From Verrucomicrobiia bacterium (GTDB lineage Bacteria; Verrucomicrobiota; Verrucomicrobiia; Verrucomicrobiales; DEV007), in NCBI GenBank assembly GCA_020439925.1, contig JAGRPC010000086.1, positions 1-37,496 of the forward strand: a stretch of 37,496 nucleotides of DNA. Direction: 5' to 3'. Both the position numbers and the translations under genes were made by a program. The number at the start of each line of letters is the position of its first letter. The stretch's first letter is position 1. The notes beneath the pieces were generated by a model. The model did not search any database. It saw only the letters and a program-made list of their open reading frames with translations, and had not been told where the DNA came from. Shown here piece by piece: positions 6,348 to 35,566 of this stretch.

Positions 6348-6593
6348 TCAAATCCTGCCCGTTTCCTCGAGATAAAGTCTGATCAGTCGGACGGAGAGCA
6401 TTTCCAAAGTCTCTTCGGGACTGAGTTGAATGTCGAATTCATCCTCGATGGCCAAGATGAGGTTGAGATGGGCAATCGAACTCCATTCGGGCGTGTTGTC
6501 CGGACTCAAGTCGTCGGAGATAGAGCCCGGGGGGATCCCGAGTACTTTTGAGAGGAGATCGTGCAGGCGGGCTTCAAGGGTGTTTTCGGACAT
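6348..6593 (-). CDS. Acyl carrier protein (phosphopantetheine-binding)
   Basis: This 81-residue acidic protein has the four-helix acyl carrier fold. The likely phosphopantetheine serine lies in WSSIAHLNL; the usual Asp before that Ser is replaced by Ser. It is followed by the acidic helix ILAIEDEFDIQLSPEE, typical of ACP recognition helices. The ATG at 6593 begins MSENTLEARLHDLL; upstream codons in the same frame are not ACP-like. It lies 40 bp after the FkbH-like gene and just before a hexapeptide acyltransferase. In antibiotic pathways FkbH-type enzymes load a glyceryl group onto a stand-alone ACP, so this is probably the dedicated partner. The acyl group itself cannot be deduced. Confidence 0.88.
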   Translation of the reverse strand: MSENTLEARLHDLLSKVLGIPPGSISDDLSPDNTPEWSSIAHLNLILAIEDEFDIQLSPEETLEMLSVRLIRLYLEETGRI

Positions 6594-6633
6594 GGATTTT
6601 GGTTGGTAGAGTTGATGAATGGTGACCGCCCTC

Positions 6634-8463
6634 CTATTCCGCTTTGAGGCTGTACAGATCGGGAAGCTCGGGAATTCGGGAGGAATCGAGCAAGTAGCGA
6701 ACCTGCGTCGCCGACTCGTCGATCTTTTCAAAGGCGTGTTCAGGATAAAAATTCCTCGACGGGCTGTTTTTTGGAGTGGGGATATATTCGCCGATGATAG
6801 CAACGTCACGTGCCCGACCGCGAACTCGGTCAACGAGGAGTCTCAGGAGGGCAGATTCGATCCGCCTTCCCATGACGCGGCAGCTCAGCAGAAAAGTATC
6901 GATTCGCCAATCTTCCTTGGAATCGTGTCCGGAAGGAGGAACCGCGAGTGCGAATCCCACCAAGCCATGACTTCCGAACCGATCGGAAACGGAAACTGTG
7001 ACTCCGATTCCCCCGGCTTCGAGAAGGCGCCGCAGTTCGTCGGCGGTGTGGCGACGGGTTGTGAGGTTGAACTGGTTGGACCGGCCGAGCAATTGAAGGA
7101 CGCGGCGAAACTGGGGCGACTCCGTATCCAAAAGCTCATGGGAGATGATCGTATCGAGACTCCGGAGAAAATCTTCAGGGTTCTCAAAAGATCGACTTGA
7201 GATCCTGCGTTGACGCTCAATGCGGTAATGGTCGGCTCGCTCCGTGTCCTCGGGTGTCAGGACGAGGGTGTCGAAGAGCCCGGAAGATTCAATCACGTCG
7301 ACGTAGCCAATCGGATTCGTGCCGGTATCGAAAACGTGAACCTCTGGAAGTTGCGACTTGACCCACTCCCGCTCCGCGGGGTTGTCATCGAAGAAAGTGA
7401 TCGAATCGAGGGCGATATTCAGATTCGCGGCGATGTTCCGTATGGACAATGCTTTGTCTTTCCAGTGAATCTGGAGTTCCGAAAAATCCTCGGGTCGGAG
7501 GATTGATGAAGGGTGGTTTGTGAGTACGTCTAATGCGTCTTTTTCGTTGTTCTTGCTGGCGATAGCGAGGAGGATGCCCCTATTTCTGAGGCGGGCGAGG
7601 TAGCGCTGGAAATCTACATAGGCCGAACCGGGATAGTCCTCGCCCAGTTCAATGCCGCTCAGGCCGTCCTCTCCCACGACTCCCCCCCAAAGGGTGTTGT
7701 CCAAATCGAGAACTAGGCACTTTTTGGGCCGCATTTTCAGCAGAGCAAAGCACCTTGCGTGATTTCGGGCGAGATGGGCTTGGGCTCTCTGGGAAAAAGG
7801 CATGCGAGCCAGATAGGATAAACGAAGATCGTAGAAGTGTTTCAAGCCGACCTCATAGGCGGTCCGGTGGAAGTCGAAAATCCAGGTGTTCTGGCTTCGC
7901 CGGCACAAACCGGAAATTCCCTGGTTCACTTCGGCGACGAATTGCTGCTCCGAAAATTCGAGAGATGCGTCGGCAAATCCTGCAGCCAAACGCGCGGGTT
8001 CGGCCATGTTCCAGAGAAAGATGGGGGCGGAGGAATTTTTCCGAATGCCGTCAATGAGATTCTCCAGTCGCTCCACGACATGTTCCCGGACCAAGAAAAG
8101 GCTCTCTTCACGCGATCCTGTGAATCGGCAAAGTCGGCCTGGAAGCCAATCCTCCAGCTGTAAAGCAAGAGTGACTACCTCCGGCTCGAACCGGTAAAGT
8201 TCGGATGCTGGGTCAAGGACCAACTGCTCGAATTGGTCGAAAGGACAGAAGAAGTGATCAAGGAGGAAGCCTTGTGAGGCAAGCTCCACCTTGAGATGGG
8301 GCTCCATCAATTCAATGGAAAAGGAGGAAAGAAATGCCGCCCGTAACGGAGACAGGTTTAAGTCGTTGTCAGCTGTGAGTTCACGTGCCAAAGCGACGTA
8401 ATCGGTTTGACTCTTCGACGGGATGGCGAGACGCGTTTCGATGGATGACGGACTCTCGGGCAT
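6634..8463 (-). CDS. FkbH-like HAD-IIIC family enzyme (acyl-ACP loading)
   Basis: This 609-residue protein belongs to the FkbH-like group. An N-terminal domain (about 1-240) is followed by a HAD-IIIC phosphatase domain whose motif I is VLDLDNTLWGGVVGEDG (Asp253/Asp255 region). A C-terminal region (about 460-600) resembles the GNAT-like part of the family. Well-studied FkbH proteins take 1,3-bisphosphoglycerate, remove the phosphate and place the glyceryl group on an ACP. The ACP gene follows 40 bp downstream and a hexapeptide acyltransferase follows that, which suggests making and transferring an acyl (perhaps glyceryl) decoration. The acyl product is inference. The polymerase gene lies 110 bp upstream on the same strand, so these genes may share a promoter. 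Confidence 0.9.
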   Translation of the reverse strand: MPESPSSIETRLAIPSKSQTDYVALARELTADNDLNLSPLRAAFLSSFSIELMEPHLKVELASQGFLLDHFFCPFDQFEQLVLDPASELYRFEPEVVTLALQLEDWLPGRLCRFTGSREESLFLVREHVVERLENLIDGIRKNSSAPIFLWNMAEPARLAAGFADASLEFSEQQFVAEVNQGISGLCRRSQNTWIFDFHRTAYEVGLKHFYDLRLSYLARMPFSQRAQAHLARNHARCFALLKMRPKKCLVLDLDNTLWGGVVGEDGLSGIELGEDYPGSAYVDFQRYLARLRNRGILLAIASKNNEKDALDVLTNHPSSILRPEDFSELQIHWKDKALSIRNIAANLNIALDSITFFDDNPAEREWVKSQLPEVHVFDTGTNPIGYVDVIESSGLFDTLVLTPEDTERADHYRIERQRRISSRSFENPEDFLRSLDTIISHELLDTESPQFRRVLQLLGRSNQFNLTTRRHTADELRRLLEAGGIGVTVSVSDRFGSHGLVGFALAVPPSGHDSKEDWRIDTFLLSCRVMGRRIESALLRLLVDRVRGRARDVAIIGEYIPTPKNSPSRNFYPEHAFEKIDESATQVRYLLDSSRIPELPDLYSLKAE

Positions 8464-11911: not shown

Positions 11912-11952
11912 TTCCATGCCGCGCCGCGAGGATGAAGTTGCAAAAGGCGATC

Positions 11953-12627: not shown

Positions 12628-13191
12628 ATGACAACCCAACAGTATCTATCGCGCCTCCAAGAACTCATTTCCGTGATCGATCTCGATTCGGTATCCCGTG
12701 TCTCCTCGCTTTTCCGGGATGTCAGCGAAAGAGGGGGGACGGTCTATGTCTGTGGCAACGGTGGAAGTGCGTCAACGGCATCCCACATCGCCTGCGATTT
12801 GTCGAAGAATGTGACGAGTTCCCGGGAAAGGCGTCTCCGCGTGATCAGTCTGACGGACAATCTAGCCTACTTTTCTGCCATCGCGAACGACATCGACTAT
12901 TCGGAGGTGTTTGTGGAGCCTCTTCGCAATCTTCTGACCTCGAAAGACGCTTTGCTCGCCGTCTCGGCGAGTGGAAATTCGCCCAACGTCGTCAAGGCTG
13001 CGCAGTATGCCAGGGATGCTGGGGCGACGGTAGTAGCGTTCACCGGTTTCGGTGGGGGAGCCTTGCGTGGTCTTGGTCACGAAGTCCTCCACGTTAGCTG
13101 CGAGGAGTATGGTCCTGTCGAGGATCTCCATTTGGTATTCAACCATTTGCTGGTCGTTTCTCTCAGGGAAGCGATGGGGCCGGGATCGTGA
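12628..13191 (+). CDS. gmhA: Sedoheptulose-7-phosphate isomerase (GmhA-like, SIS domain)
   Basis: This 187-residue single SIS-domain protein matches GmhA in size and motifs. VYVCGNGGSASTASHIACDL (39-58) forms the phosphosugar-binding loop. LLAVSASGNSPNVVKAA is the second Ser-rich loop, and a C-terminal helix keeps a histidine (EDLHLVFNHLL). It should convert D-sedoheptulose 7-phosphate to D-glycero-D-manno-heptose 7-phosphate. The following enzymes (HddA and a GmhB-HddC fusion) are encoded at 18137-20418 on the other strand, which supports a GDP-heptose pathway rather than a general SIS role. The stop codon lies four bases before the next gene's ATG, so translational coupling is likely. Confidence 0.9.
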   Translation: MTTQQYLSRLQELISVIDLDSVSRVSSLFRDVSERGGTVYVCGNGGSASTASHIACDLSKNVTSSRERRLRVISLTDNLAYFSAIANDIDYSEVFVEPLRNLLTSKDALLAVSASGNSPNVVKAAQYARDAGATVVAFTGFGGGALRGLGHEVLHVSCEEYGPVEDLHLVFNHLLVVSLREAMGPGS

Positions 13192-14693: not shown

Positions 14694-15575
14694 ATGAAAG
14701 AACTCGCAAGACGAATTCTAGAGAGAGTGGTCCGGTTTTTCCTGTTGTTCAGTGTTTTTGACCGTTTCCTCGTTTTTGCCGCCTATGAGAGAAAGCGAAT
14801 ATTGAGGGGAAAAATCGAGCAAAGGCTGCGTCGATTGGGACTTTACGGCGATACGGTGCAATCCGGACCGTTCGAGGGAATGGTGTATCCGGAACCGGAA
14901 GTATGGGTTTCCTGTCGTTTCGAGAAAGTATCCGGCTTTTATGAATTCGAACTTCACCAGTGGATCGAGCGACTAGCGGGTTCCGGGAAGGCATTCACCT
15001 CTGTGGTCAATATCGGTGCTGCCGACGGCTATTTTGCCGTTGGCCTTGGGAGGCTCTTTCCGGAGGCGCGGGTTTTCGCGTTCGAAGCCGCCGAGAACCG
15101 GTATCAGTCGCTTGTCAGGGTTTCGGAGGTGAATGGCATGTCGAATCGCTTGGTTGCGGGAAGATGGTGCTCGCCAGAAGCTCTTGCGGCTCTCGATGTT
15201 GGTGACTGCCCCTTGGTGGTCTGCGATGTCGACGGCTTTGAAGATGTATTGATGGATCCCGCGCTTGTTCCATGGCTTCAAGAGGCGGTGATTCTGTTAG
15301 AAGTTCACGAGTTCCTAGCGCCCGATCTGCCCGGTGCCGAGAAGGAAGCGTTTGAGAAGCAGCATCCGTTTCTGGTTCGTGACATGGGCAGAAAGATACG
15401 GGAGCGGTTTCGCATTTCGCATGTGATCGAAGAGTGTCTGGTCGGCGCGGTGCCGATCGACCGTTATCCGGTGTTTCGCAACCTGTCCATGGGGGAGATC
15501 GCGGCCCTCGCCGAGTCGGACCGGTGTTGCATCCACCCGTGGTTCCTGATGACACCGGCGCCCACCAACGCTTAG
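14694..15575 (+). CDS. FkbM-like SAM-dependent methyltransferase
   Basis: This 293-residue protein has an N-terminal basic and hydrophobic segment (about 1-30) that may associate with the membrane. The methyltransferase core follows: motif I VVNIGAADGYFAVGLG (104-119), VFAFEAAENRY (127-137) and LVVCDVDGFEDVLMDP, the FkbM-type acidic motif. The C-terminal 60 residues are not assigned. The ATG at 14694 was chosen over a TTG at 14655 because GGAAG lies just upstream. The gene ends the plus-strand series, and its stop overlaps the stop of the opposing MBOAT gene by four bases. The substrate is probably a sugar hydroxyl. Confidence 0.75.
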   Translation: MKELARRILERVVRFFLLFSVFDRFLVFAAYERKRILRGKIEQRLRRLGLYGDTVQSGPFEGMVYPEPEVWVSCRFEKVSGFYEFELHQWIERLAGSGKAFTSVVNIGAADGYFAVGLGRLFPEARVFAFEAAENRYQSLVRVSEVNGMSNRLVAGRWCSPEALAALDVGDCPLVVCDVDGFEDVLMDPALVPWLQEAVILLEVHEFLAPDLPGAEKEAFEKQHPFLVRDMGRKIRERFRISHVIEECLVGAVPIDRYPVFRNLSMGEIAALAESDRCCIHPWFLMTPAPTNA

Positions 15576-16987
15576 AACCTGAAATAGATAAAGGGCTGGA
15601 ATTCCTTCGGGTAAAACGCGATGACAAGCCAGATCATCGTAAGCAGGATGGCGGGAGCGCGAATGGTGTCCGGTTTCAAATCGAACCAGGACGATTTTCC
15701 CGCGGCCAGAAGGGCGTTGTAGGCGGAAAAGATCACGATCACTCCGACGGCGAAGGGGTCGTGCCAAGCAACTCCATCCGCCAGCGACAGCATCCGTGAG
15801 AGGATCATCAGTGCCGAATCGAGGTCGGGAGACCGAAAAAAGACCCAGCCGAAAAGCACGATGAGCAAGGTGGTTCCCCAGCCGAAGAGAGAGCGGAGGA
15901 AAGCGGGAATGTGACGGGCCCGCCGCATTGGCGGGTTTCCGGTATCCTTTCCCGAGACCATGCGGTCGACGGCAAGAGCGAACCCATGCCAGGCTCCCCA
16001 AATCACGAAGGTCCAGTTTGCTCCATGCCAGAGCCCGCCGAGGACCATCGTGAGGAATAGGTTCACTTGGGTTCGGACGCGTCCGAGTCGATTCCCGCCA
16101 AGGGGGACGTACAGGTAGTCGCGCAGCCATGAGGAGAGGGAAATATGCCAGCGGCGCCAAAAGTCCTGAATCGAGGTGGCGAGATAGGGGTGATCGAAGT
16201 TTCTTGTGAAGTCGTAGCCCATGACACGTGCCAGGCCGATGGCCATGTCAGAGTAACCGGAGAAGTCGCAGTAAATCTGAATGGCATAGGCCAGGAGCAC
16301 GAGCCAAAGGGTGATTCCGTCGAGAGCGGCGGCGTTTTCGAAGCCCGGATCGACAAAGGCGGCGAGTCGGTCGGCGATGAAGACCTTCTTGAAAAGGCCG
16401 ATTACGAATTGCCGGAAACCATCGTAAGCGCGAGCCCAACCCAAGGTTCTCGGTGTTTCCAACTGGGGAAGGAACTCTGAGGCTCGCACGATCGGTCCCG
16501 CCACCAACTGGGGAAAGAAGGCGACGAAGAGGGCGAAGTCGGAAAAGCGACGGCAGTGCGGGAGGTTTCCACGATAGACGTCGATGGTATAGCTGAGTGT
16601 CTGGAAGGTGTAAAAGGAGATACCTACAGGAAGAATGAGATTGATCGTGCTCCCAGGCGAATCGGGCAGCCCACACATGGCACGGAACGAATCGATGAAG
16701 AAATTGAAATACTTGAAAAGGGCGAGGACACCGAGGCTGTAGACGAGGGCCGCAGAAACAAGGAGCCTTCGACGCGACGGGCTGCTTCCTTCCATGCGAC
16801 CAGCCAGCCAGAAATTCACGGCGGTGCACGCGAGCAGCAATCCAGAGAATCGCCAGTCCCAGTAGGCGTAGAAGTAATAACTTGCAACAAGCAGGACGGC
16901 CTTTTGCACACGATGCTGCCTGATGACCAGAATGGCCATCAGTACCGCCGCGAGAAAAAAGTAGAACTCAATCTGGGTAAACAACAT
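15572..16987 (-). CDS. MBOAT-family O-acyltransferase (AlgI-like), copy 1
   Basis: This 471-residue polytopic protein matches AlgI/DltB-type MBOAT enzymes, which move acyl groups across the inner membrane for polysaccharide acylation. Conserved features are ASYYFYAYWDWRF (35-47), LPVGISFYTFQTLSYTIDVY (119-138), FFPQLVAGPI (158-167) and FWRRWHISLSSWLRDY (276-291). The active-site His321 is in GGLWHGANWTFVIWG. The ATG at 16987 overlaps the SGNH gene by 20 bp, so the two proteins are probably made together and work as a pair. It is the last gene of an eight-gene series that also carries E1, E2, ACP and heptose-activation genes. The acyl donor is unknown. Confidence 0.92.
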   Translation of the reverse strand: MLFTQIEFYFFLAAVLMAILVIRQHRVQKAVLLVASYYFYAYWDWRFSGLLLACTAVNFWLAGRMEGSSPSRRRLLVSAALVYSLGVLALFKYFNFFIDSFRAMCGLPDSPGSTINLILPVGISFYTFQTLSYTIDVYRGNLPHCRRFSDFALFVAFFPQLVAGPIVRASEFLPQLETPRTLGWARAYDGFRQFVIGLFKKVFIADRLAAFVDPGFENAAALDGITLWLVLLAYAIQIYCDFSGYSDMAIGLARVMGYDFTRNFDHPYLATSIQDFWRRWHISLSSWLRDYLYVPLGGNRLGRVRTQVNLFLTMVLGGLWHGANWTFVIWGAWHGFALAVDRMVSGKDTGNPPMRRARHIPAFLRSLFGWGTTLLIVLFGWVFFRSPDLDSALMILSRMLSLADGVAWHDPFAVGVIVIFSAYNALLAAGKSSWFDLKPDTIRAPAILLTMIWLVIAFYPKEFQPFIYFRF

Positions 16988-18140
16988 GGCGGTTCTCCAG
17001 AATCCATGAGTGGATGGCCTCTGCGACAAGCCGGTGACCATCGTCGTTGAAGTGTCCTTCCCAAGGACGAGAATTCTGAAATCCCTTCGGGAATCGACCC
17101 GTTTCGTTCCAGAAATGGAGAAAGGATTCCTCAAGGCTTATAAAGCCGATCTTCTTCTCCTCGCAAAGTTCCCCAAAGCGTGTCGCCAGCGATTTCTCGG
17201 AGTTCTTCAGAATCACTTGCCCGTGCTCCAAAGCCGGTGTCGCGGGACTGTAGACGATAAGAATGGGCAGCTGGGTCGAAGAGCGGATTTCATCAAGAAG
17301 AAAGTTCCAAGCCTTTTCAGGTGCCTCCTCACTCGCCCACTCGGGTTCGAGCAGGCGGTTCCAAGCCCGGTGCAGCCCTTCCGGCGTCTCCTTTCGGTAG
17401 ACCCCGGGGGCGAAACGCAACTCTTCGAACCGGGCGATGCTGGCAAGGCGCGTCCTAAGATAGAGGAAGAACTGAAGATGAAGTTTGGAAAGATTAGTTC
17501 GCAATCGACTGGGTTCGACCGGCGCCTCTCTTTCCTGGTACTCATTGTCATATTTCTCGAGGTGAAGGTCGGGTTCGCTGAGGAACAGCGAAATCCGGGC
17601 TCCTCGATACAGGTCGGGTAGGGTATCTTCGAGCGAGTAGAGGTGAAGAACATGAAGGCGGACACCCCCCAAAGCCGACTCGTAGATAGGAATCCGGAAG
17701 CGGTGATCGGCGAAACTCGCGAAGCGTTCGCCAATGCCGACGGCAACGCCTCCCAAGTCGTGTCGAAGGAGTTCCGTCAACTGCCGCTGCATCTTGGCGG
17801 AGTCTGCAACATTGACGGCCTCCACGAAAGAGTCTCCCCAGATTGCGACCTTTGGGGATTCGTCGATTTCTCCTTCGGCGGATCCAATGAGGCCGAATCT
17901 GCCAACAATGCTGTCAGCCCAGCCTTCCTCTCGTTCGCGGAGAACCGTCCCTGGTTCGAGAATGTTTCGCCGAAGTTCGGGCGACCATTCTTCAATCCAG
18001 ATATTGTTCGTGAAAACGGCGGTGATGCTCCAGATCGCTGCAATGGAGATCAATCCGCCGACCAGCCACTTGAGGACGAGAGAGACGGAGAATGCAGCCT
18101 TGCCAGGCACATAGCCTGAAAGTCGAGGTATCGAGGTCAT
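16968..18140 (-). CDS. SGNH/GDSL-type protein, MBOAT partner (AlgJ/AlgX-like role)
   Basis: This 390-residue protein has one N-terminal membrane anchor (about 20-44) and a periplasmic SGNH-like domain. The nucleophile block is VAIWGDSFVEA, with GDS at 102-104. The C-terminal block GHFNDDGH supplies the Asp366/His369 pair. Such proteins accompany MBOAT acyltransferases and complete transfer of the acyl group to the polymer in the periplasm, as AlgJ and AlgX do for alginate. The start overlaps the HddA stop as ATGA, and the stop overlaps the MBOAT start by 20 bp. Both active-site blocks look intact. It could instead act as an esterase, but the coupling favours acyl transfer. Confidence 0.85.
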   Translation of the reverse strand: MTSIPRLSGYVPGKAAFSVSLVLKWLVGGLISIAAIWSITAVFTNNIWIEEWSPELRRNILEPGTVLREREEGWADSIVGRFGLIGSAEGEIDESPKVAIWGDSFVEAVNVADSAKMQRQLTELLRHDLGGVAVGIGERFASFADHRFRIPIYESALGGVRLHVLHLYSLEDTLPDLYRGARISLFLSEPDLHLEKYDNEYQEREAPVEPSRLRTNLSKLHLQFFLYLRTRLASIARFEELRFAPGVYRKETPEGLHRAWNRLLEPEWASEEAPEKAWNFLLDEIRSSTQLPILIVYSPATPALEHGQVILKNSEKSLATRFGELCEEKKIGFISLEESFLHFWNETGRFPKGFQNSRPWEGHFNDDGHRLVAEAIHSWILENRHVVYPD

Positions 18141-19120
18141 CCGTAGTGAACGATGGTGCTACCCTGCATCTCGATACCTGTCTCAAATTCGTTCAAACCT
18201 CGTGCCTTCATCGCGTTTCTCAGGTTCTCCTGCTTCGGCTCATCGCAATAGAAAAGCAGGAATCCTCCGCCCCCTGCACCGAGAAGCTTTCCACCGCGGG
18301 CACCGGCGGCAAGGCCTTCCTCGTAAAGCGAGTCGATCCTTGCGTTAGCGATATCGCCGGTGAGACTCCGCTTGAGAAGCCAGTTTGCGTGGAGAAGGTC
18401 GCCGACCTCATTGAGCCGACCAGCTACGAGCGCGGAGTTAAGCGGCTCGACCAGTGCAACCATCTCCGAAAGGACCCGGCGTTTCTCCGCATTTTGACCG
18501 ACTTCGCTGGACTGCTTTCCAAGAATGGCGGTGTTGTCCCCACGCATGCCGGAGTAAAACATGAGAAGCTTGGACTCGAGTTGTTCGCGAATGCTTCGAT
18601 CGCAAACGACCGGCTCGACAAAGACCGTTTCGTCAGGATTGAACTGGATCACGTTGATGCCACCGTGGCCGGCGGCATACTGGTCCTGCTTGCCGATGGG
18701 AGCTCCAAGAATTTCGATTTCCAGGCGACTTGCTTCCTCGCAGAGCTGTTCCTTGGAGCGGTACTCGCCACGGTAGGCATGGAGGGCATGGAGAACACCG
18801 ACGGCGAGGGAGGACGAGGAACCCAGCCCCGTTCCGGCGAAAATGTTAGCTATAGTGGTGATCTCGACCCCCTGGGTTACTCCCGTGAGGCGCATCGCCT
18901 CACGGATCAGATTATGCCGGAGATGTGAGAAGTCGTCGACAATCTCGGTCTCGGTGTAGGCGACACGCACGCTTTCGTCGAAGCGGGGGCTGACCGTGAC
19001 GTACATGTAGCTCTTGATCGCGAAACTGAGCACCCTTCCGGGTGAGTGACGATAGTAGTTCGCCATGTCGGATCCGCCGCCCACCAGGCTGACGCGGAAA
19101 GGGGTTCGGGAAATGATCAT
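18137..19120 (-). CDS. hddA: GHMP kinase, D-glycero-D-manno-heptose 7-phosphate kinase-like (HddA)
   Basis: This 327-residue protein is a GHMP-family sugar kinase. It begins MIISRTPFRVSLVGGGSD, typical of HddA and related kinases. The ATP loop is FAGTGLGSSSSLAVG (94-108) and motif 3 is LLGAGGGGFLLFY. It should phosphorylate D-glycero-D-manno-heptose 7-phosphate at C1 to give the 1,7-bisphosphate. The assignment rests on family likeness plus linkage to GmhA and the GmhB-HddC fusion; fucose or galactose kinases of the same fold are the alternative. The ATG at 19120 overlaps the fusion gene's stop (ATGA), and its own stop overlaps the SGNH start in the same way. Confidence 0.88.
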   Translation of the reverse strand: MIISRTPFRVSLVGGGSDMANYYRHSPGRVLSFAIKSYMYVTVSPRFDESVRVAYTETEIVDDFSHLRHNLIREAMRLTGVTQGVEITTIANIFAGTGLGSSSSLAVGVLHALHAYRGEYRSKEQLCEEASRLEIEILGAPIGKQDQYAAGHGGINVIQFNPDETVFVEPVVCDRSIREQLESKLLMFYSGMRGDNTAILGKQSSEVGQNAEKRRVLSEMVALVEPLNSALVAGRLNEVGDLLHANWLLKRSLTGDIANARIDSLYEEGLAAGARGGKLLGAGGGGFLLFYCDEPKQENLRNAMKARGLNEFETGIEMQGSTIVHYG

Positions 19121-20418
19121 GCGGTCTTCAGATACTGCTCGATCCAAGTGAGACGTTCGGGGGTGCCGACGTCGAGGAGAAGGTCTTCGGTGTTGTAACC
19201 GCAGAGGACATCGCCCGCTTCGAGCATGCGCGGGAAGAGGTCTCGGCAAAAATCCTCGTCGCGGGGAGGAGCGGAAAGGCGATCAAGGGCGGCGGGTTCG
19301 AGGAGGTAGGCCCCTGCATTTCCGAGGATACCGAAACGATCGTCGCCTGGCTTGTGATGAATATGCCGAATGCGGGCTCCGTCGCCCAATTCGATGATGT
19401 CACTGTCGTGTGGGTGACTACTCGGATGGATCACGAGGGAAGCGGCGGCATTCTCCGCCCGGTGGAAGTTCGTCAAGGCACCGAGGTCGAGGCGGGAAAA
19501 GACGTCGCCATATTGGACCAGGAAGGTCTTGTCGAGACGTTCCCGAAATGCATGCAAGGCTCCGGCGGTTCCGAGTAGCCGTTCCTCCCGATGATAGCGG
19601 ATCTCAACTCCCCATGCGCTTCCATCCCCGAAATGATCGGAGATAACGTCGGCGAGGTAGTGAAGATTGAAATGGAATTCCCGGACGCCGAATGAGCGGA
19701 GCCATTCGATATGGTGTTCAAGCATGGGTTTCCCGGCGATGGGAACCATGACCTTCGGCAGGTTTCGGGTCAGCTCGCCGAGGCGAGTCCCCATTCCCGC
19801 GGAGAGTATGACGGCCTTGCGCACCGGTTCGACTTTGCACGCTTTCACTTCCATGTGTTTTTCGAGGAGAAAGGACACGGCATCTCCAAGATCGTCAAAG
19901 GCGGAGTCGGGAAGAACCTGGCATTTTCCGTCTTTACCGCCGAAACCCGTACGTACAAGCCAAGCGGCAGTTCCCGCTGCCCTGCCGGCTTGAAGATCAA
20001 CGGTTCGATCCCCGATAAAGATACAGCTGGAAAGCTCCAACCCGAACTCGGCAGCCGCCCTTTTGAGGAGTCCGGGACGCGGTTTTCGGCATTCGCAAAT
20101 CATCCGGAATGCAGGATCGTCGGCATTCTCGTGGTGTGGACAATAGAAGATCGCATCGATCTTCGCACCCTCGGCTGCCAATAGTGCCCCAAGAGTTTCG
20201 TGAATGTCTCCCAGCGCCCGTTCGCTGCACCATCCCCGTGCGACCACCGGCTGGTTCGTGATCACGATTGCCGGAATCGAAGCGGCGTTGAGTTTTCGGA
20301 TCGCCTCAGCGGCCCCCGGGATGAGTTTCAGTTGATCCGGGCTCCTGATGATTCCGTTCTCCTCGTTGATGACACCATCCCGGTCGAGGAAAACCGCTTG
20401 GATAGGAAACTTTTCCAT
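19117..20418 (-). CDS. Bifunctional GmhB phosphatase - HddC heptose-1-phosphate guanylyltransferase fusion
   Basis: This 433-residue protein joins two pathway enzymes. The N-terminal HAD domain (1 to about 185) has FLDRDGVIN (Asp12/Asp14) and the GmhB zinc set Cys93, His95, Cys108 and Cys110, ending CECRKPRPG. It should remove the 7-phosphate from heptose 1,7-bisphosphate. After a short linker (about 186-200) the nucleotidyltransferase domain begins AVILSAGMGTRLGELTRNLP (202-221), with KVMVPIAGKPMLEHH. It should form GDP-D-glycero-alpha-D-manno-heptose. The guanylyl preference is inferred from HddC context; the sequence alone does not exclude another nucleotide. The two halves are in one uninterrupted frame. 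An internal ATG at 19854 has no ribosome site. The stop overlaps HddA by four bases. Confidence 0.88.
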   Translation of the reverse strand: MEKFPIQAVFLDRDGVINEENGIIRSPDQLKLIPGAAEAIRKLNAASIPAIVITNQPVVARGWCSERALGDIHETLGALLAAEGAKIDAIFYCPHHENADDPAFRMICECRKPRPGLLKRAAAEFGLELSSCIFIGDRTVDLQAGRAAGTAAWLVRTGFGGKDGKCQVLPDSAFDDLGDAVSFLLEKHMEVKACKVEPVRKAVILSAGMGTRLGELTRNLPKVMVPIAGKPMLEHHIEWLRSFGVREFHFNLHYLADVISDHFGDGSAWGVEIRYHREERLLGTAGALHAFRERLDKTFLVQYGDVFSRLDLGALTNFHRAENAAASLVIHPSSHPHDSDIIELGDGARIRHIHHKPGDDRFGILGNAGAYLLEPAALDRLSAPPRDEDFCRDLFPRMLEAGDVLCGYNTEDLLLDVGTPERLTWIEQYLKTA

Positions 20419-20434
20419 GCAAATTTGACGCGGT

Positions 20435-21661
20435 TCAGCAACCGCCGTGGGCGGAATGATAAACTCGCGCTAGACGGTCGGCCGCCTTTTCGATACTCTG
20501 GGTGGATTCGATCCACATGGACGCTGAGGCTCCCAAACGGGTCCTAGCCTCCGGTGATCCAAGCAAGTGGATCAATGCGCTCGCGATGGAAGCGGGATCG
20601 TGGGAAACCGCGAGGAACTCGCTTCCAGGAGTTCCATATTCCTCTCCCGGGTCCGGGAATCCGTGGAAGGGCGCAAGCACTGAAGGCAATCCGCTGCTCA
20701 TCGCTTCCAGCACCGCGCTCGGCAACCCCTCCTTGTGTGAGGCAAATACGAAAAGATCGGATGCTTGGTAGTAGTCTTCAACGTTGGAGACTTCTCCCGT
20801 GAAGATCACGCTTTTGGGATTTGAGAGGTTTGAGACGAGCTCTTGCACGTTTTTTAGATATTCCTCCAGGCGGTCTCGCACACCGGGCTCGTCGAAGGTT
20901 GATCGAACGTGGTTACTGCCGACAATCACGAGCGATGCGGACGGGCACCGGTCCAGTACTGTCTGCCAGGCCTTGATCAACAAGTCGACCCCCTTTCGCG
21001 GTATGACGCTACAGACGGAGAGCACGATGGGACCGGAATCAGGAAGCCCCAATCGGGTCCGGGTTCCAGATTTGAATGTTGGGTCGATCGGATGAAAGAT
21101 CTTGCGGTCGATGCCGTTGGGAATGACTGCAATCCGCTTTGCACCGATTCCCGCCAACTCTTGAAAAGTACGCCCCATCGTGTGACTGCACATGAGCAGC
21201 CGATTGTATGGGCTTAATCCGACTCGTTCAACAAGACGTCTGCGGGTCATCCGTAGAATGCCGGCCTGTTTGATTTCCGGCACCTCGGTGAAATGTCGAA
21301 AAAGAGGTATGCCTGCGAGCCGGATACGAGCCAACTTTGCGACGCTGCGGGGGGTGAACGCGAACGTGCCTATCGGCTGGATGCACGCCTGTCTGCGGAG
21401 ACCGCGGGAGGCAATCTCTCTGGCGGCGAAATCCGCCAGCATCAGCAGATCTTCAAGGAAGTTGCCGTCACCCACGCCCGGGATCCGGCGAATCTCCAAT
21501 CCTTCTGCCTCAATCTTCTCACCCTTGTGTTCGGGGCGTAGAGTTGTCAGAACGGTGATCTTGATTCCGCGGTCGCGGAGGTAAGGGGCATATCTGAGGT
21601 ACTGGAGGGAGCCACCGGGCAATTCCGGAAAAAAGAAGTTGCTGGGGAGATACAGGTGCAT
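20435..21661 (-). CDS. Glycosyltransferase family 4
   Basis: This 408-residue GT-B glycosyltransferase begins MHLYLPSNFFFPELPGGSLQ, a typical GT4 acceptor-domain start. The C-terminal domain shows VIPNGIDRKIF, VLSVCSVIPRKGVDLLIKAW and SHKEGLPSAVLEAMSSGLP with the E-x7-E donor motif. It lies 16 bp upstream of the GmhB-HddC fusion and 16 bp downstream of the ACP. It is therefore a good candidate for the heptosyl or manno-heptose-type transferase of this operon, although no motif proves the sugar. The ATG at 21661 was chosen because further upstream codons would run into the ACP gene. Confidence 0.87.
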   Translation of the reverse strand: MHLYLPSNFFFPELPGGSLQYLRYAPYLRDRGIKITVLTTLRPEHKGEKIEAEGLEIRRIPGVGDGNFLEDLLMLADFAAREIASRGLRRQACIQPIGTFAFTPRSVAKLARIRLAGIPLFRHFTEVPEIKQAGILRMTRRRLVERVGLSPYNRLLMCSHTMGRTFQELAGIGAKRIAVIPNGIDRKIFHPIDPTFKSGTRTRLGLPDSGPIVLSVCSVIPRKGVDLLIKAWQTVLDRCPSASLVIVGSNHVRSTFDEPGVRDRLEEYLKNVQELVSNLSNPKSVIFTGEVSNVEDYYQASDLFVFASHKEGLPSAVLEAMSSGLPSVLAPFHGFPDPGEEYGTPGSEFLAVSHDPASIASALIHLLGSPEARTRLGASASMWIESTQSIEKAADRLARVYHSAHGGC

Positions 21662-21677
21662 CGAGAGGGTCTGAAAG

Positions 21678-21953
21678 TCAGACAGGGATCGGGGCGTCCA
21701 TGGGTTCGCCCGAGTCGAGGTTGGAATCCACATTGCGTTTTTCAAGCAACTCCACAATGTTTGAAACACTTACGAGTTCGACGATTTCGTCATCATCGAA
21801 GACAACGGAGAAGCGTTCTTCAAGGGCGAGGACAAGACGGAGGTGCCCGGCGGAGTCCCAGCCGGGGACGGTCATGGGGCTGGACTCCAGGTCAAGGGAT
21901 GCAGGATCCGCCGAGAATAACTCTGCAACGGTGCTCAGAACGCGATCAGTCAT
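21678..21953 (-). CDS. Second acyl carrier protein
   Basis: This 91-residue acidic protein has the acyl carrier fold, with the phosphopantetheine serine in GWDSAGHLRLV and the recognition helix LALEERFSVVFDDDEIVEL. A short acidic and Pro-rich tail follows helix IV. It lies 52 bp after the E2 gene and 16 bp before a glycosyltransferase, within the minus-strand series. ACPs are not normal partners of 2-oxoacid dehydrogenase E2 proteins, which use CoA, so the linkage is notable. It may accept an acyl group made by the E1/E2 pair, or serve an unlinked acyl-activating enzyme. Confidence 0.85.
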   Translation of the reverse strand: MTDRVLSTVAELFSADPASLDLESSPMTVPGWDSAGHLRLVLALEERFSVVFDDDEIVELVSVSNIVELLEKRNVDSNLDSGEPMDAPIPV

Positions 21954-22005
21954 GAATTTCTAATTGGGAAAGTCTAATTGGAAAAGTGGTAAAGGAGGCC
22001 TGGAA

Positions 22006-23100
22006 TCAGGCCCATTCTGAGGGGGCGGGGCACTCGAATCGCTCCTTGATTGCCTGTGCGAACCTATTTGCGTCGGAGCCGTTGATGGCCCGGTGGTCGA
22101 AGGCGATACCGATGTTAACGAATCTTTTGAAGAGAGGAAGCCCATCATCAAGACCCGAGAATTCCGAAAGGACGGCACCGGTCGAGATCATACAGGTTTG
22201 GTCCGGGGGAATGATCGGGGCGACGAATACGGTATCGGAGTCGCTGTTGATACTGATCGAAATCGAAGCCCCCTCAAGATGCTCGGCCTTGAATGCGGAT
22301 TTTGATGCGGTGATACGGTGCTTCATCATTGCCTTTGCGATCTCCGGAAGATTCGTGCATGCACTCGACGGAATCACCGGGATGAACAGCCCTTTTCCCA
22401 CGTCCATTGTTACTCCAACGTTCGGAGGCGATTTTGGCGTGAAATTCAGTTCGCCATCAACTTTCCCATAGAAGAGGGGAAACTCTCCGTCCAATCTTGC
22501 CACCACGAATACCAGTAACTCGGGGAGTCCGAGAAACAGGCGATGTTTCGTCGAAAACTCTCTCAGAGCATTGATGACATCGTCGACGTAAACCCGCTTT
22601 AACAAGAACGAATCGGGAATGAGCCTGTGTGATTCGGAGACCACTCGGGCTACCGCCGCCTGGATATCTTTCAGCGGGTGGATTTGGGACGCCGCGTCGT
22701 GATCTGAGAGCAGTGAAAGCACGTCACCGGACCGGATGATCTGTTTTCCCAAGGCCAGGATCTGTTCCCGTGTGATACCATGTTTACGGATCAATTCCTC
22801 GGCGGGGGTCGTTATTGCCGGCCCCTGGAACACGGTGTTGTTCGCTGGTTCGGGAGGTGAAAAGAACTCCCCGTCGTGGATCCATGCGATCGTACTTCCG
22901 AAGGCGTGGGAGCTTCCTGGCGTTGCCGCTATCCTGAGGGTTCCAGTACAAGGGGCGTCGAGATCGAATGATGCCTTTGTGGTTTCGAGAACGGCGATGA
23001 CCTCCCCCGCCGAGACCGTTGCGCCGTCGTCTTTCGTCCATGCCACCAGTTTCGCGGAAACGTCATTGGCATTGATGGTGGGAACCGTTACGGGTGTCAT
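22006..23100 (-). CDS. Dihydrolipoamide acyltransferase-like E2 component
   Basis: This 364-residue protein has the full E2 layout. The lipoyl domain (about 1-78) has the lipoylation site ETTKAS with Lys42. A peripheral subunit-binding-like segment lies near 93-132 (TPAEELIRKHGITREQI). The catalytic acyltransferase domain follows to the end. It would pass an acyl group from lipoamide to an acceptor thiol. The conserved HxxxDG motif reads DHRAINGSD, so the usual Asp is Asn, while the His is kept. There is only one lipoyl domain. The ATG at 23100 overlaps the E1 stop (ATGA). No E3 (dihydrolipoamide dehydrogenase) gene is present in the window, so E3 would be shared with the housekeeping complexes. 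Confidence 0.88.
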   Translation of the reverse strand: MTPVTVPTINANDVSAKLVAWTKDDGATVSAGEVIAVLETTKASFDLDAPCTGTLRIAATPGSSHAFGSTIAWIHDGEFFSPPEPANNTVFQGPAITTPAEELIRKHGITREQILALGKQIIRSGDVLSLLSDHDAASQIHPLKDIQAAVARVVSESHRLIPDSFLLKRVYVDDVINALREFSTKHRLFLGLPELLVFVVARLDGEFPLFYGKVDGELNFTPKSPPNVGVTMDVGKGLFIPVIPSSACTNLPEIAKAMMKHRITASKSAFKAEHLEGASISISINSDSDTVFVAPIIPPDQTCMISTGAVLSEFSGLDDGLPLFKRFVNIGIAFDHRAINGSDANRFAQAIKERFECPAPSEWA

Positions 23101-25112
23101 GAATGCAGATCTGAGAGAATGCGTGCCGCAATTTGGTCGGCGCCGGGGATGACCCCAGCTTCGAGGTGCTTGGAAGACGGAATAATCGAATGGACAGAAC
23201 CAATCGTTTGAACATTGATCCCCGACCGTTCGAGTTCGCGCAGTTCCCGGGACAGGCCAGATGTCCATCCGCATTCGACTGATCCCTCCTCGACCAGGAA
23301 AACCGCTCGAGAGGTGGTTGTGTGGCCCAGCCAGTCGAGATCAAAGGGATAGATGCGAGCAAGGACGATGATCTGCGAATCAATTTCGTGCTCGAAAAAA
23401 AGCTTTCTGGCGGCTCCGAGACAATCCGGAAACATGCTTCCTGTCGTGACAATCGTTAGGTCGGGCTGGTCGCTGACGAAGGCTCGTGCGAAAAAACCAT
23501 TTTCCGAGGATGAGAAATGGTAGAGATCATCCACCCGGTCGCCGGTCGAAACCGGCCAGCCATAGAGTGATTTGGATTCGAAAAGGATCGAGGGGGTGCC
23601 GGACGAGAGGATCAGTGGAATGAGTTTCGTGTTGTCGTGCAAGGGGGAAGTTTCGTAGAGGTCGAGGTCTGGAATTCCGAGAAAGTGTTTCTGGACCGAT
23701 TGGCTGTGGGTGGGACCGTAACCGCGTCGGCCGCCCACGGGAATGCGGAACAAGACGGTGTGTCTCCGACGCTCACCGTACATCGATGGTGACTTCGCGG
23801 CAAAGTTTACGATCTGGTCGTATGCGAGAAGGGCAAAGTCCCCGAACATGAACTCGACGATGGGGACTCGGCCGGAAAGGGCCAAGCCGTTTGCGACCCC
23901 GGTGAAACCGAGTTCACTGATGGGGGTGGACAGGACTCGTCCGGGGAAACGGGTTGAAAGGCCGCGTCCGGCTTTGAAGGCGCCACCATAAGGATCGGCG
24001 ATGTCCTCACCGAGGAAAAAAACACTCTCGTCCTCCATGACGAGGTGAAGGGCGCGGTTCAAATTCTCGACGACCAATTCCCCGGGGCGGTCCGGAGAAA
24101 GATCCAAGCACGCGGACTGTCGCTTGGTGGGGGGAAGTGGATCCCACTCCGAGGGGCGCCGTGTCAGCAAAGAATTTGTCATCTCCTCGATCATCTCGCG
24201 TGATTCCGAATCGAGTTGTTCGAAAAGGTCCGGGTCGAGGGCCCGGTAAAGGGAATGCCAATCCCGGTCATGAAGTTCCGAAAGTTCCTCTTCGGGGCGA
24301 GTGTCATCGCCCTTGCTGTGGGAGGAAAGGCGGTCCGTCAGGAACTCCACGACCAACGGCCCCCCCCCGTCCCTGACCTTTTCGATGAGGGGAGCAAGCA
24401 GGATTCTTGCTGTTTCGACGTCATTCGTGCTGATGAATTCATGGGCCACGCCAAAGGCCCGGCAACGACCTGAAATATCCCCCGCCATGTGTTCCTTGAT
24501 CCGGGTTGTCTGTGCGATCCGATTGTTCTCCACGATCACACAAATGGGAACCTGCCAAAGGGAGGCGAGGTTGAGGGCCTCATAAACAGCCCCCTGGCCC
24601 CAGGTGCCGTCGCCGATGAACGGCATGCAAACGGCACCCGGCTTGTGTAGTTTCATGTCTAGCGCAACTCCCACGGACACGGGAAGGCTCTCGCCCTGCA
24701 CGCCAGTGGAGAGAAAGCCGTCGCGGCGGAGGTGCTGGCTACCGCCGACCCCGTCGCAGATGGCTCCCTCCTTCCCCATGATTTCGGCCATGAGTCCTTC
24801 GGGGTCGTCATATCGGGCCAGGTAGTGCCCATGTCCCCGGTGATTGCTGAAGACCTGATCTCCTTCCTTTAGCAGGGAGATGGCGGCCACGGAAACGACC
24901 TCTTGTCCAATGCAGGTGTGGGTGGTTCCGTTGAGGACGCCCGAATGAAACAGCGAGAGAAGTTTGGATTCGAAGTTCCGGATGAGCAGGAGCTTTTTGA
25001 GAACCGGAATGGGAGGGAATCCCGCTGGTTGATGTGTTTCTGAGGGAATGGCTTTCAAGTGACGGTCGGATCGAAACCCAGGTCGGCGAAAATGTTCTGG
25101 CGCTGGCTCCAA
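23097..25112 (-). CDS. Fused E1 alpha-beta 2-oxoacid dehydrogenase (TPP-dependent)
   Basis: This 671-residue protein fuses E1 alpha (about 35-330) and E1 beta (about 345-671). The alpha part has the thiamine diphosphate motif GDGTWGQGAVYEALN, with GDG at 167-169, ending in ENN (195-197), plus GGSQHL. The beta part has FFLGEDIADPYGGAF (GED at 368-370), the E1 beta core FMFGDFALLAYDQIVNFAAK, and THSQS. It would decarboxylate a 2-oxoacid (or cleave acetoin) and acylate the E2 lipoyl group. The substrate is not readable; the alpha half looks closest to acetoin- or pyruvate-type enzymes. No ATG lies ahead of the domain. The TTG at 25112 is used here and a TTG at 25058 is the alternative; neither has a strong ribosome site. 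Confidence 0.9.
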   Translation of the reverse strand: MEPAPEHFRRPGFRSDRHLKAIPSETHQPAGFPPIPVLKKLLLIRNFESKLLSLFHSGVLNGTTHTCIGQEVVSVAAISLLKEGDQVFSNHRGHGHYLARYDDPEGLMAEIMGKEGAICDGVGGSQHLRRDGFLSTGVQGESLPVSVGVALDMKLHKPGAVCMPFIGDGTWGQGAVYEALNLASLWQVPICVIVENNRIAQTTRIKEHMAGDISGRCRAFGVAHEFISTNDVETARILLAPLIEKVRDGGGPLVVEFLTDRLSSHSKGDDTRPEEELSELHDRDWHSLYRALDPDLFEQLDSESREMIEEMTNSLLTRRPSEWDPLPPTKRQSACLDLSPDRPGELVVENLNRALHLVMEDESVFFLGEDIADPYGGAFKAGRGLSTRFPGRVLSTPISELGFTGVANGLALSGRVPIVEFMFGDFALLAYDQIVNFAAKSPSMYGERRRHTVLFRIPVGGRRGYGPTHSQSVQKHFLGIPDLDLYETSPLHDNTKLIPLILSSGTPSILFESKSLYGWPVSTGDRVDDLYHFSSSENGFFARAFVSDQPDLTIVTTGSMFPDCLGAARKLFFEHEIDSQIIVLARIYPFDLDWLGHTTTSRAVFLVEEGSVECGWTSGLSRELRELERSGINVQTIGSVHSIIPSSKHLEAGVIPGADQIAARILSDLHS

Positions 25113-25390
25113 CCGGCTTGCGAATTTCCGGACGCGGGCCGGGGTTCCGTGATTTCACGAAAGCTCCAAGCGTAGAGCGCGTTCCTAGTTTCCCGATTGA
25201 CCGGAAGAATTCAAGAGTCAATTCACTGCGGTTTTGGAAACTCCGACGGTTACTCCTCCACGCCACATACAGAGCTCGCTGGATTCCGGTTGTGTGGGGG
25301 GCGGATTTCATGATCGGCAAGTCATGGGCATCGGGTCCTTGACCCACGATGGGAAGGGTGGTAGTCAGGTCGACGATACGAGATTCGTGG

Positions 25391-26311: not shown

Positions 26312-26312
26312 G

Positions 26313-33178: not shown

Positions 33179-34588
33179 ATGTGGTTCAACAGCTTCAGTT
33201 TCTGGCTCTTCCTAGCGGTGGTTCTGCTTGTCTACCACCGTCTCGGACATCGTCTCCAGAATCGGTTTCTTCTTCTCGCCAGCTACTTCTTTTACGGGTG
33301 CTGGGACTGGCGCTTTCTCTTCCTCATCCTTTTCACGACGGCGTTTGATTTCTTCGCGGCTCGGCGGATCGAGGCGAGCGCCGATGCAACGGTGCGAAAA
33401 TACTGGGTGACAGCCTCCCTCGTCGTCGAGCTGGGGGTGTTGGGAGTCTTCAAGTATTTCGGGTTCTTCCTGACAGAATTCAATCGAGTCCTTTCGGTTC
33501 TCGGACTCGAACACTGGGAACCCGGCTTTCGGCTCATCCTGCCGGTGGGGATCTCCTTCTACACCTTCCAGGCGCTCAGTTACACCATCGACGTCTACCG
33601 GGGGAGGACCACTCCGTGTCGGCATTTCCTCGACTTCGCCCTCTACATTTCCTTTTTTCCGCAGCTGGTGGCGGGTCCCATCGAGCGTTCCCATCACCTC
33701 CTTCCGCAGGTCGAGAATCCCCGTCCACGGGTCTCGGAGGCGCTGTTCCGGGAGGGCCTCTACCTCGTGATCACCGGGCTCTTTCTCAAGGTGGTCATCG
33801 CGGACAACATGGCGTGGCTCGCCAACTTCGTGTTCGATGCCAAGCCCGGCGAACTGAACGGAGCCGAGGTTCTCCTGGGGATCTACGCGTTTGCTTTCCA
33901 GATCTACGGAGATTTCGCCGGTTACAGCGCCATCGCCATCGGGGTTTCGAAATGGATGGGCTTCGATCTCATGGAGAACTTCCGGCGGCCCTATTTTGCG
34001 GCGAATCCGCGCGAGTTCTGGCAGCGTTGGCACATCAGTCTCTCAACCTGGCTGCGGGATTATCTCTACATTCCCCTGGGTGGGAACCGGGAAGGGGAGT
34101 GGAAAACGAGGCGGAATCTGATCCTCACGATGGTCCTTGGCGGTCTCTGGCACGGAGCCGCGTGGACCTTCGTGATCTGGGGAGCCATTCACGGAGTTTG
34201 GTTGGCGATCCATCGTCCTTGGTTCGCGCGCTCTCCGGGAGGAAACGGGCGGGGTGCGAGACTTCTTGGAATCGTCGTTACCTTTCACCTTGTGTGCCTC
34301 GGCTGGGTCTTTTTTCGCGCTGAATCATTCGGGGCCGCCATCGCGCTCCTTTCTTCGTTGGCGGCACCCTGGCAGTTTTCGGATTTCCTGACGACCGGCA
34401 TTTGCCTGATGGTTTTTTTTCTCGGGCCTTGGCTTGCATTTGAGTTTTGGATGGAGAGGCAGAATGACTCCGCAAGACTGCTAGGACTGCCGTGGCCAAT
34501 TCGAGTATTCGCGTATCTCTATGCTCTTCTCATGTTGTTGTTTTTCGCCGCTCCCAAGCCAGTGGAGTTCATCTATTTTCAATTCTGA
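33179..34588 (+). CDS. MBOAT-family O-acyltransferase (AlgI-like), copy 2
   Basis: This 469-residue polytopic protein shares layout and many motifs with copy 1 at 15572-16987. Examples are LASYFFYGCWDWRF (33-46), LPVGISFYTFQALSYTIDVY (121-140), FFPQLVAGPI (159-168) and FWQRWHISLSTWLRDY (280-295). The active-site His325 is in GGLWHGAAWTFVIWG. It should move an acyl group across the inner membrane for polymer or repeat-unit acylation. Its partner SGNH-like gene starts 12 bp downstream, the reverse gene order of copy 1. The two MBOATs differ in many places, so they are not a recent duplication. They may use different acceptors or donors. Confidence 0.92.
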   Translation: MWFNSFSFWLFLAVVLLVYHRLGHRLQNRFLLLASYFFYGCWDWRFLFLILFTTAFDFFAARRIEASADATVRKYWVTASLVVELGVLGVFKYFGFFLTEFNRVLSVLGLEHWEPGFRLILPVGISFYTFQALSYTIDVYRGRTTPCRHFLDFALYISFFPQLVAGPIERSHHLLPQVENPRPRVSEALFREGLYLVITGLFLKVVIADNMAWLANFVFDAKPGELNGAEVLLGIYAFAFQIYGDFAGYSAIAIGVSKWMGFDLMENFRRPYFAANPREFWQRWHISLSTWLRDYLYIPLGGNREGEWKTRRNLILTMVLGGLWHGAAWTFVIWGAIHGVWLAIHRPWFARSPGGNGRGARLLGIVVTFHLVCLGWVFFRAESFGAAIALLSSLAAPWQFSDFLTTGICLMVFFLGPWLAFEFWMERQNDSARLLGLPWPIRVFAYLYALLMLLFFAAPKPVEFIYFQF

Positions 34589-34600
34589 CAGAGTTCCTCG

Positions 34601-35566
34601 TTGAAAACGGAAAGTTTGGTTGTGGTTTCCCTGGTGGTCGCTTTGACGGCCCTCGAAGCGGTTTCCAGAGTGGTCGAGCCCCGGCTCTCGGCCGATGTCC
34701 GGCAGATGCTGGCCCAGAATGAAATTGCCGACCGCGTCCGAGAGGCCAAGAACGAGGATAGGGCATCCATCCTGGTGATCGGAAATTCATTGGCAAGGGC
34801 CTCAATCCTTCCCGACGAGATCGCGGTTGCTATCGATTCAACGGAGGGGAAGCCGCCGGAGGTTCTCTACATCACGCCGGATGCCAGCGGTATCAACGAA
34901 TGGGCGGCGGCCTACCGCAAGGCTTTTGCGCCCGATCTTGGGGTCGAGCTTCCGGATCTGATCATCATCGTAGCGGGCCCATGGCACCTCGTGGATCATG
35001 CTGTCAGCAGTCCCGAGAAATTGTCGGCCTACCATGTGTCTTCTCGTGATCGATTGGATGTGGCCTGGAATTGGTTCTCCGACATCGGCGCTCGTTGTCG
35101 TTTTGCACTGGCGGGTGTCTCGCGCCTTTTCGCCAATCGGGAGAGGGTTCAACCTCTCCTGTTTTATGGTTGGGTGCCCGGATATGAAGTCACCGCTCAA
35201 AGACTGAACCAGACAAGCAGCTTACGAGCTGAGGACCGTTCCGGTCGAGATGAACCGGCGTCGGTTCGCCCCGCCGACACCACTTCAAGATTGGAACTGC
35301 TTCTTGATTCTCTCGGAGTGGAGCCGGAACAGGTTTTGATCGCGGCCGTACCCTTGCCAGAGCACTACAAACTGCCCGAATCGGTGGTATCCGTTGCGAG
35401 GGCGCGAGGGATCAATGTCTTCACCGAGGCCGCGGAGAAAGAATGGCCTGCTTCGGCGTTTCCGGACGGTTACCACATGTCTTCCGAAGCGGGGCGGGCA
35501 TTCTCCAGGGAGCTCGAGAATTTCATCCGATCGCGCCAGAACGGAGGCTATCAGCCTTCGCGATAA
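34601..35566 (+). CDS. SGNH-like periplasmic protein, partner of MBOAT copy 2
   Basis: This 321-residue protein has an N-terminal hydrophobic anchor (about 5-22) and a periplasmic domain. The nucleophile block reads ILVIGNSLARASI, so GDS is GNS (61-63), and the C-terminal block FPDGYHMSSEAG keeps Asp289 and His292. Sequence likeness to the other SGNH gene is low, so the assignment leans on these two blocks and the MBOAT partner. The start is a TTG at 34601, 12 bp after the MBOAT stop; no ATG precedes the anchor. Its 3' end overlaps the convergent flippase gene by 16 bp. It may complete acyl transfer outside the membrane. Confidence 0.7.
   Translation: MKTESLVVVSLVVALTALEAVSRVVEPRLSADVRQMLAQNEIADRVREAKNEDRASILVIGNSLARASILPDEIAVAIDSTEGKPPEVLYITPDASGINEWAAAYRKAFAPDLGVELPDLIIIVAGPWHLVDHAVSSPEKLSAYHVSSRDRLDVAWNWFSDIGARCRFALAGVSRLFANRERVQPLLFYGWVPGYEVTAQRLNQTSSLRAEDRSGRDEPASVRPADTTSRLELLLDSLGVEPEQVLIAAVPLPEHYKLPESVVSVARARGINVFTEAAEKEWPASAFPDGYHMSSEAGRAFSRELENFIRSRQNGGYQPSR

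Follow-up and report, generated by a model that had tools for sequence, protein, structure and literature searches.

Introduction

Two kinds of described system come closest to the locus reported here. Among pathways that pair an MBOAT acyltransferase with an SGNH-type protein, Dlt D-alanylation (DltA/C/B/D/X) is the sole one with a carrier-protein donor in the mechanistic literature consulted, and in it DltB receives the acyl group from the carrier; the others are stated to be without a carrier, with acyl-CoA regarded as their donor (PMC12148441). The second kind comprises the two-component transketolases NapB/NapC/NapD, QncN/QncM/QncL, SclQ1-4 and DinS/T/U, in which E1 thiamine diphosphate domains, a lipoyl domain with E2, and a discrete acyl carrier protein (ACP) are encoded in one operon; NapB-C-D and QncN-M-L produce glycolyl-ACP, with ketose phosphate as the source. 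The roles of the Nap, Qnc and Scl enzymes are documented (PMC7570522, PMC6335953): the proteins NapB-C-D-E of the dnacin cluster measure 306, 76, 754 and 336 aa (PMC7570522), and the Qnc enzymes are reported to form a C2 glycolicacyl unit and to attach it (PMC6335953). For the pepteridine system of Photorhabdus (E1/E2-T-C), too, direct priming of a carrier arm by E1/E2 has been proposed (PMC5384830). Here we describe a stretch of 37,496 nucleotides from a Verrucomicrobiia bacterium (contig JAGRPC010000086.1; the whole stretch is called the window below), in which genes for 2-oxoacid dehydrogenase-type E1 and E2 proteins and an ACP share an operon with genes for an MBOAT and an SGNH-like protein. 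A route from E1/E2 to a carrier is known for antibiotics; for surface sugars we found no description in the open-access literature, nor any of E1/E2 or lipoyl-hexapeptide proteins in glycan acylation, an absence that proves little because the search was limited to open-access papers.

An E1/E2/ACP operon in an exopolysaccharide locus

Taken as a whole, the window is an exopolysaccharide locus that encodes a Wza-like export protein, an initiating sugar transferase, a Wzc-like kinase, Wzy and Wzx. Eight open frames form an operon on the minus strand: E1 (23097..25112), E2 (22006..23100), ACP1 (21678..21953), a GT4 glycosyltransferase (20435..21661), GmhB fused to HddC (19117..20418), HddA (18137..19120), an SGNH-like protein (16968..18140) and MBOAT1 (15572..16987). 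This order and these families, given in an initial annotation made from the sequence, were confirmed with Pfam and NCBIfam, the SGNH call resting on motifs, two distant homologues and position; recomputing the junctions also returned identical values (E1/E2 -4 bp, E2/ACP +52, ACP/GT +16, GT/GmhB +16, HddC/HddA -4, HddA/SGNH -4, SGNH/MBOAT -20). A promoter and terminator scan of the operon gave counts not above those of shuffled sequence. The operon joins two conserved blocks that are separate elsewhere: E1/E2/ACP, and GT4/GmhB-HddC/HddA/SGNH/MBOAT1. Beyond the region first annotated lie genes for FkbH and another ACP (6348-8463), as well as for another MBOAT and its partner (33179-35566), and the window holds two MBOAT/SGNH-like pairs. 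On balance we favour, with modest confidence, the explanation that acyl-ACP1 loaded by E1/E2 feeds a pair of the MBOAT/SGNH type that would esterify the exopolysaccharide; it builds on gene content, domains, motifs, phylogeny and the recurrence of the gene set, from which we infer all reactions as well as the identity of the acyl group and of its acceptor.

Recurrence of E1/E2/ACP with MBOAT and SGNH-like genes

Genes for ACP, E1, E2, MBOAT and an SGNH-like protein are clustered in the congener G025, in a Nitrospirota locus (L128) and in two Bdellovibrionota loci (L113, and L180 of genome G646). The five cassette genes of L180 are 66-85% identical to those of L113, with different flanks, and the genomes of L113 and L180 each encode a single MBOAT, that of the cassette. 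An ACP is present at every MBOAT-linked E1 locus, and the MBOATs of the E1/E2/ACP cassettes all keep GLWHG and a C-terminal FIYFxF; FXYXXF is known from PatA and DltX as the motif of the acyl-tyrosine (PMC12148441). MBOAT1 (PF03062) carries the GLWHG histidine and ends in FIYFRF, and its relatives in the PDB are DltB only. The window MBOATs score 163.7 and 176.4 bits against the DltB profile TIGR04091 (cut-off 375), and are related to DltB without being DltB. The cassette E1s of Nitrospirota and Bdellovibrionota lie on a branch separate from the window E1, and a constraint placing all MBOAT-linked E1s in one clade was rejected (approximately unbiased test, p 4e-7), so the association of E1/E2/ACP with MBOAT arose at least twice; one ancestral E1/E2/ACP/MBOAT unit is ruled out by the same test. 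This recurrence supports the proposal of the initial annotation that the putative acyl-ACP supply is tied to an MBOAT/SGNH pair; a specific tie to MBOAT1 is not supported.

The SGNH-like protein has one transmembrane helix and a predicted periplasmic location. It gave no Pfam or NCBIfam match and no match in a PDB sequence search; its label is based on the motifs GDS and DxGH, which two distant homologues retain, and on its position before the MBOAT gene. The GDS and GH blocks are conserved in three homologues. Its AlphaFold model is poor (predicted local distance difference test score 46), and yielded non-significant structural matches only, several of them SGNH esterases.

Kinship of E1 and E2

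E1 is a fused alpha-beta enzyme, with PF00676, Transket_pyr and Transketolase_C within a single 671-aa frame; its start codon (TTG, 25112) is uncertain, the first 60 codons being without ATG. E2 starts at ATG 23100, not 23274, and combines a lipoyl domain (ETTKA) with a 2-oxoacid_dh acyltransferase domain bearing the active-site motif HRAING. ACP1 is a discrete carrier with the motif WDSAGHL, identified by PF00550 (E 5.8e-5) and by alignment to other E1/E2-linked ACPs. Scanning an E1 alignment against 84,980 species genomes gave at least 80 loci in many phyla. The loop motif HSKGDD is found in 76 of 84 E1 relatives, the outgroup having HSMSDP or HSHSDP where readable. In a tree of 67 E1 sequences, the E1s of the window and of G025 fall within a clade of ten sequences (Shimodaira-Hasegawa-like approximate likelihood ratio test 100) together with actinobacterial natural-product E1s. 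Three actinobacterial loci of this clade (L190-L192) have the order E1alpha, an ACP of 80-odd residues and an E1beta/E2 fusion; a KASIII-type gene comes next in both loci examined, and KASIII and the fusion were confirmed by profiles in L191. This layout matches NapB-C-D-E, the Nap-like label resting on gene order and fusion pattern. The E2s of the clade have in common the variant HRxxNG, which replaces HRxxDG.

E1 as a simple paralogue of pyruvate dehydrogenase (PDH) is ruled out by the tree, the HSKGDD motif and the equivalog scores (192.6 bits against a PDH cut-off of 393.85). E3 is absent from the operon and is encoded elsewhere in the genome only; further E1 and E2 genes also lie elsewhere, and the operon pair is therefore not the housekeeping complex. 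E1/E2 probably load a small acyl group onto a dedicated carrier protein, perhaps glycolyl, to which the kinship of E1 points. The view of E1/E2 as a dedicated acyl supply to the ACP, put forward in the initial annotation, is thus strengthened by the grouping of E1 with Nap/Qnc-like operons, by the carriers that accompany E2-type loci (see below) and by the separate housekeeping PDH. The window differs from the Nap/Qnc type, whose reference operons in this clade were identified by gene order and fusion, in having E1alpha and E1beta fused, E2 separate, no KASIII, and an exopolysaccharide setting with MBOAT/SGNH; it differs from pepteridine, in which the carrier is fused to E2 and feeds the condensation domain of a non-ribosomal peptide synthetase (NRPS). 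No NRPS genes were found among the window proteins scanned.

In three other E1 loci (L106, L077 and L102; cluster c28), proteins of 750-910 aa, by eye resembling lantibiotic-dehydratase relatives, are encoded beside E1 and NRPS genes.

Carrier proteins and lipoyl partners

We sorted the E1 loci according to which domain the lipoyl domain is joined to, leaving out 20 unclassifiable loci; the statistics include loci added by targeted searches, and contig ends cut the flanks in many. Carriers, whether free ACPs, NRPSs or ACP-like domains joined to a phosphopantetheinyl transferase, occur in 42 of 46 loci with an E2 catalytic domain and in none of the 31 whose lipoyl domain forms a fusion with a left-handed-helix (LbH) sugar acyltransferase (Fisher p 1.6e-17, uncorrected for shared ancestry). 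The simplest reading is that E2 passes the acyl group to the carrier and that an LbH fusion would make a carrier unnecessary.

These lipoyl-LbH fusions (PglD/NeuD-type), e.g. L064:5916-6980, L026:11635-12876 and about 30 further loci, adjoin E1, and suggest that this E1 family probably also feeds cytoplasmic sugar acylation. DegT aminotransferase genes lie nearby in 12/31, which suggests a direct transfer of the acyl group from lipoyl to an amino sugar without CoA. The acyl-ACP of the window might by analogy be used in the cytoplasm, where a soluble acyltransferase such as the LbH protein at 11908-12546 would acylate, ahead of export, either a sugar nucleotide or the repeat unit, while acyl-CoA would serve the MBOATs, as it does those of the PatA type (PMC12148441). 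However, an ACP is present at every MBOAT-linked E1 locus and at no LbH-type locus, and the LbH protein of the window resembles serine acetyltransferases, so we regard cytoplasmic use as improbable here. For the HSKGDD subfamily at large, we tentatively propose, at somewhat less than even confidence, that it acts as a general supplier, independent of CoA, of acyl groups (possibly glycolyl from sugar phosphates) to the surface sugars of bacteria, with two outlets: from lipoyl through ACP to MBOAT/SGNH across the membrane, and from lipoyl to a fused LbH/PglD-type acyltransferase in the cytoplasm.

Two further observations concern these partners. L125:6439-7155 and 16 similar proteins (L065, L072, L097, L103, L110 and others), encoded after E1/E2, combine in one chain a small ACP-like domain and a phosphopantetheinyl transferase of the AcpS type: Pfam detects ACPS, the N-terminal domain has an invariant Ser37, and in a structural model it forms a helical bundle with Ser37 at a helix start while the other domain matches AcpS structures. 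They are predicted to be carriers bearing their own activating enzyme. E1 relatives with LbH partners also occur on two IMG/VR contigs filed as viral (L131, L132), which may be misfiled host DNA or carry viral glycan genes.

The heptose block and the choice of MBOAT

All four heptose genes are in the window, since GmhA on the plus strand (12628..13191; TIGR00441 97.4 bits, below cut-off) completes the set of GmhB (a HAD phosphatase), the fused HddC-like nucleotidyltransferase (NTP_transferase) and the HddA-like heptose-7-phosphate kinase (GHMP; NF049969 129 bits, equivalog cut-off 600). These are family-level matches, none reaching an equivalog cut-off, and the exact sugar is accordingly unproven. 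The orthologous locus of the congener G009 keeps Wza, the initiating transferase, Wzc, Wzy, Wzx, GmhA (65% identity), GT4 (56%), GmhB and HddC (split, 68% and 77%), HddA (86%), SGNH (59%) and MBOAT1 (76%). In the 58 kb around it, no E1/E2/ACP1 and no MBOAT2/u34601 were found; it has instead FkbH, an ACP and another MBOAT. Conversely, G025 has E1/E2/ACP beside a 76% orthologue of MBOAT2, and its 60 kb contain no heptose genes and no FkbH. GT4-heptose-SGNH-MBOAT1 is a separate conserved unit that would share a transcript with E1/E2/ACP1.

The initial annotation had proposed that E1/E2/ACP1 supply the acyl group specifically to the SGNH/MBOAT1 pair of the operon, which would acylate the heptose made through HddA/HddC. 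The single operon with overlapping genes speaks for this, as does the persistence of the GT4, heptose, SGNH and MBOAT1 genes as a group in G009. Yet G009 keeps that block without E1/E2/ACP1, the E1/E2/ACP/MBOAT sets of G025, L113, L128 and L180 are without heptose genes, and the nearest kin of MBOAT1 lack the supply genes; we consider this proposal unlikely. Its prediction that homologous loci keep E1/E2/ACP with heptose and MBOAT genes thus held for MBOAT and not for heptose, and a specific link of the putative acyl-ACP supply to heptose is not supported.

MBOAT2 (33179..34588, plus strand; C-terminus FIYFQF) and its SGNH-like partner u34601 (34601..35566, plus strand; GNS and DGYH motifs) are candidate users of acyl-ACP1. 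E1/E2/ACP and MBOAT2/u34601 are both present in the window and in G025, where a 40% homologue of u34601 lies beside the MBOAT2 orthologue. That orthologue (L027:8756-10208, minus strand) reads in two overlapping frames, which may reflect gene breakage or faulty assembly, but next to the ACP lies another MBOAT2-like gene, which is intact. The MBOAT tree places MBOAT1 with a relative without E1/E2/ACP, and groups the ACP-adjacent MBOATs of G025 and L128 with MBOAT2; this is a lean rather than proof because an MBOAT without ACP (L217) is also in the MBOAT2 clade. The role of MBOAT1 as acyl user, assumed at first, is thus matched: MBOAT2/u34601 appears at least as good a partner for E1/E2/ACP1.

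Several points weigh against carrier-fed acylation by an MBOAT in the window. MBOAT-linked loci are just 5 of about 97 that carry an HSKGDD-subfamily E1, and most relatives serve other sinks; the nearest relatives of MBOAT1 (L202, L203, G009) are without E1/E2/ACP1 nearby, so a different donor may serve MBOAT1; MBOAT2 is 8 kb away from the operon, and its candidacy is based on three genomes. Outside Dlt, the MBOAT/SGNH systems that are known use acyl-CoA (PMC12148441), and the acyl decoration of the exopolysaccharide is itself a predicted substituent.

A candidate second loader: FkbH and ACP2

On the minus strand, an FkbH-family protein (6634..8463; TIGR01686 271.7 bits, cut-off 146.65), a candidate second, alternative ACP loader from a family that in polyketides is of the glyceryl type, is followed after about 40 bp by ACP2 (6348..6593; WSSIAHL), supported by a profile match, by its sequence and by NCBIfam. 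ACP1 was set aside as the partner of FkbH, as ACP2 adjoins it. FkbH with ACP2 and E1/E2 with ACP1 make up two candidate loader/carrier pairs in the window, and a natural reading would be that one polymer bears two different acyl groups. An ACP-FkbH-MBOAT cassette is present in G051 (L240), and carrier-fed MBOATs may have FkbH as a further loader. Such cassettes, and the FkbH of the window, also fit E1/E2 being a paralogue of PDH or branched-chain dehydrogenase that makes acyl-CoA, the neighbouring ACP serving, e.g., FkbH-type glyceryl loading. This is very improbable, given that FkbH has its own ACP2, that the E1 subfamily stands apart from PDH and has E2s accompanied by carriers, and that housekeeping E1/E2/E3 are encoded elsewhere. 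FkbH-ACP pairs were seen near MBOAT genes in both L240 and L241.

Proposed mechanism and its meaning

In the favoured explanation, E1 would use thiamine diphosphate to draw an acyl unit, of two carbons or otherwise short, from central metabolism, the donor being most probably a ketose phosphate (which would yield glycolyl) and less probably a 2-oxoacid, and would pass this unit to the lipoyl arm of E2, whose catalytic domain would transfer it to the phosphopantetheine of ACP1; the lipoyl group would be re-oxidised by the housekeeping E3. Acyl-ACP1 would then be the cytoplasmic donor for an MBOAT, either MBOAT2 with u34601 (somewhat favoured) or MBOAT1 with its SGNH-like partner, and the tyrosine of the C-terminal FXYXXF would relay the acyl group to the SGNH-type periplasmic partner, which would esterify the exopolysaccharide. 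This amounts to a Dlt-like pathway in which E1/E2 would replace the DltA ligase; no AMP-binding match, such as a DltA-type ligase would give, was found among the scanned window proteins. The likeness to Dlt lies in the carrier protein, the DltB-like MBOAT, the putative SGNH-type partner and the FXYXXF tyrosine, which is fused to the window MBOAT, whereas Dlt has it on the microprotein DltX; the proposed loading by E1/E2 and the proposed exopolysaccharide target set the two apart. AlgI/AlgJ/AlgX and PatA/PatB resemble the window in an MBOAT with fused FXYXXF, a putative SGNH-type partner in the window and a Gram-negative cell, but they have no carrier protein, and their donor is taken to be acyl-CoA (PMC12148441). 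The ACP-linked MBOAT/SGNH loci look like exceptions to the carrier-free rule stated there.

If this explanation is true, a second class of carrier-fed MBOAT/SGNH systems, loaded by dehydrogenase-like or FkbH-like enzymes, would stand beside Dlt, and the decoration of sugar coats would be connected to glycolyl-ACP machinery of the antibiotic type. The chemistry expected of exopolysaccharides would then widen past acetyl and D-alanyl to glycolyl, glyceryl and branched acyl groups, and the acyl group would become predictable from the loader gene.

Finally, two proteins with zero Pfam or NCBIfam matches (frames of 320 and 422 aa) are encoded on the plus strand at 25349-27428, divergent from the E1 operon.

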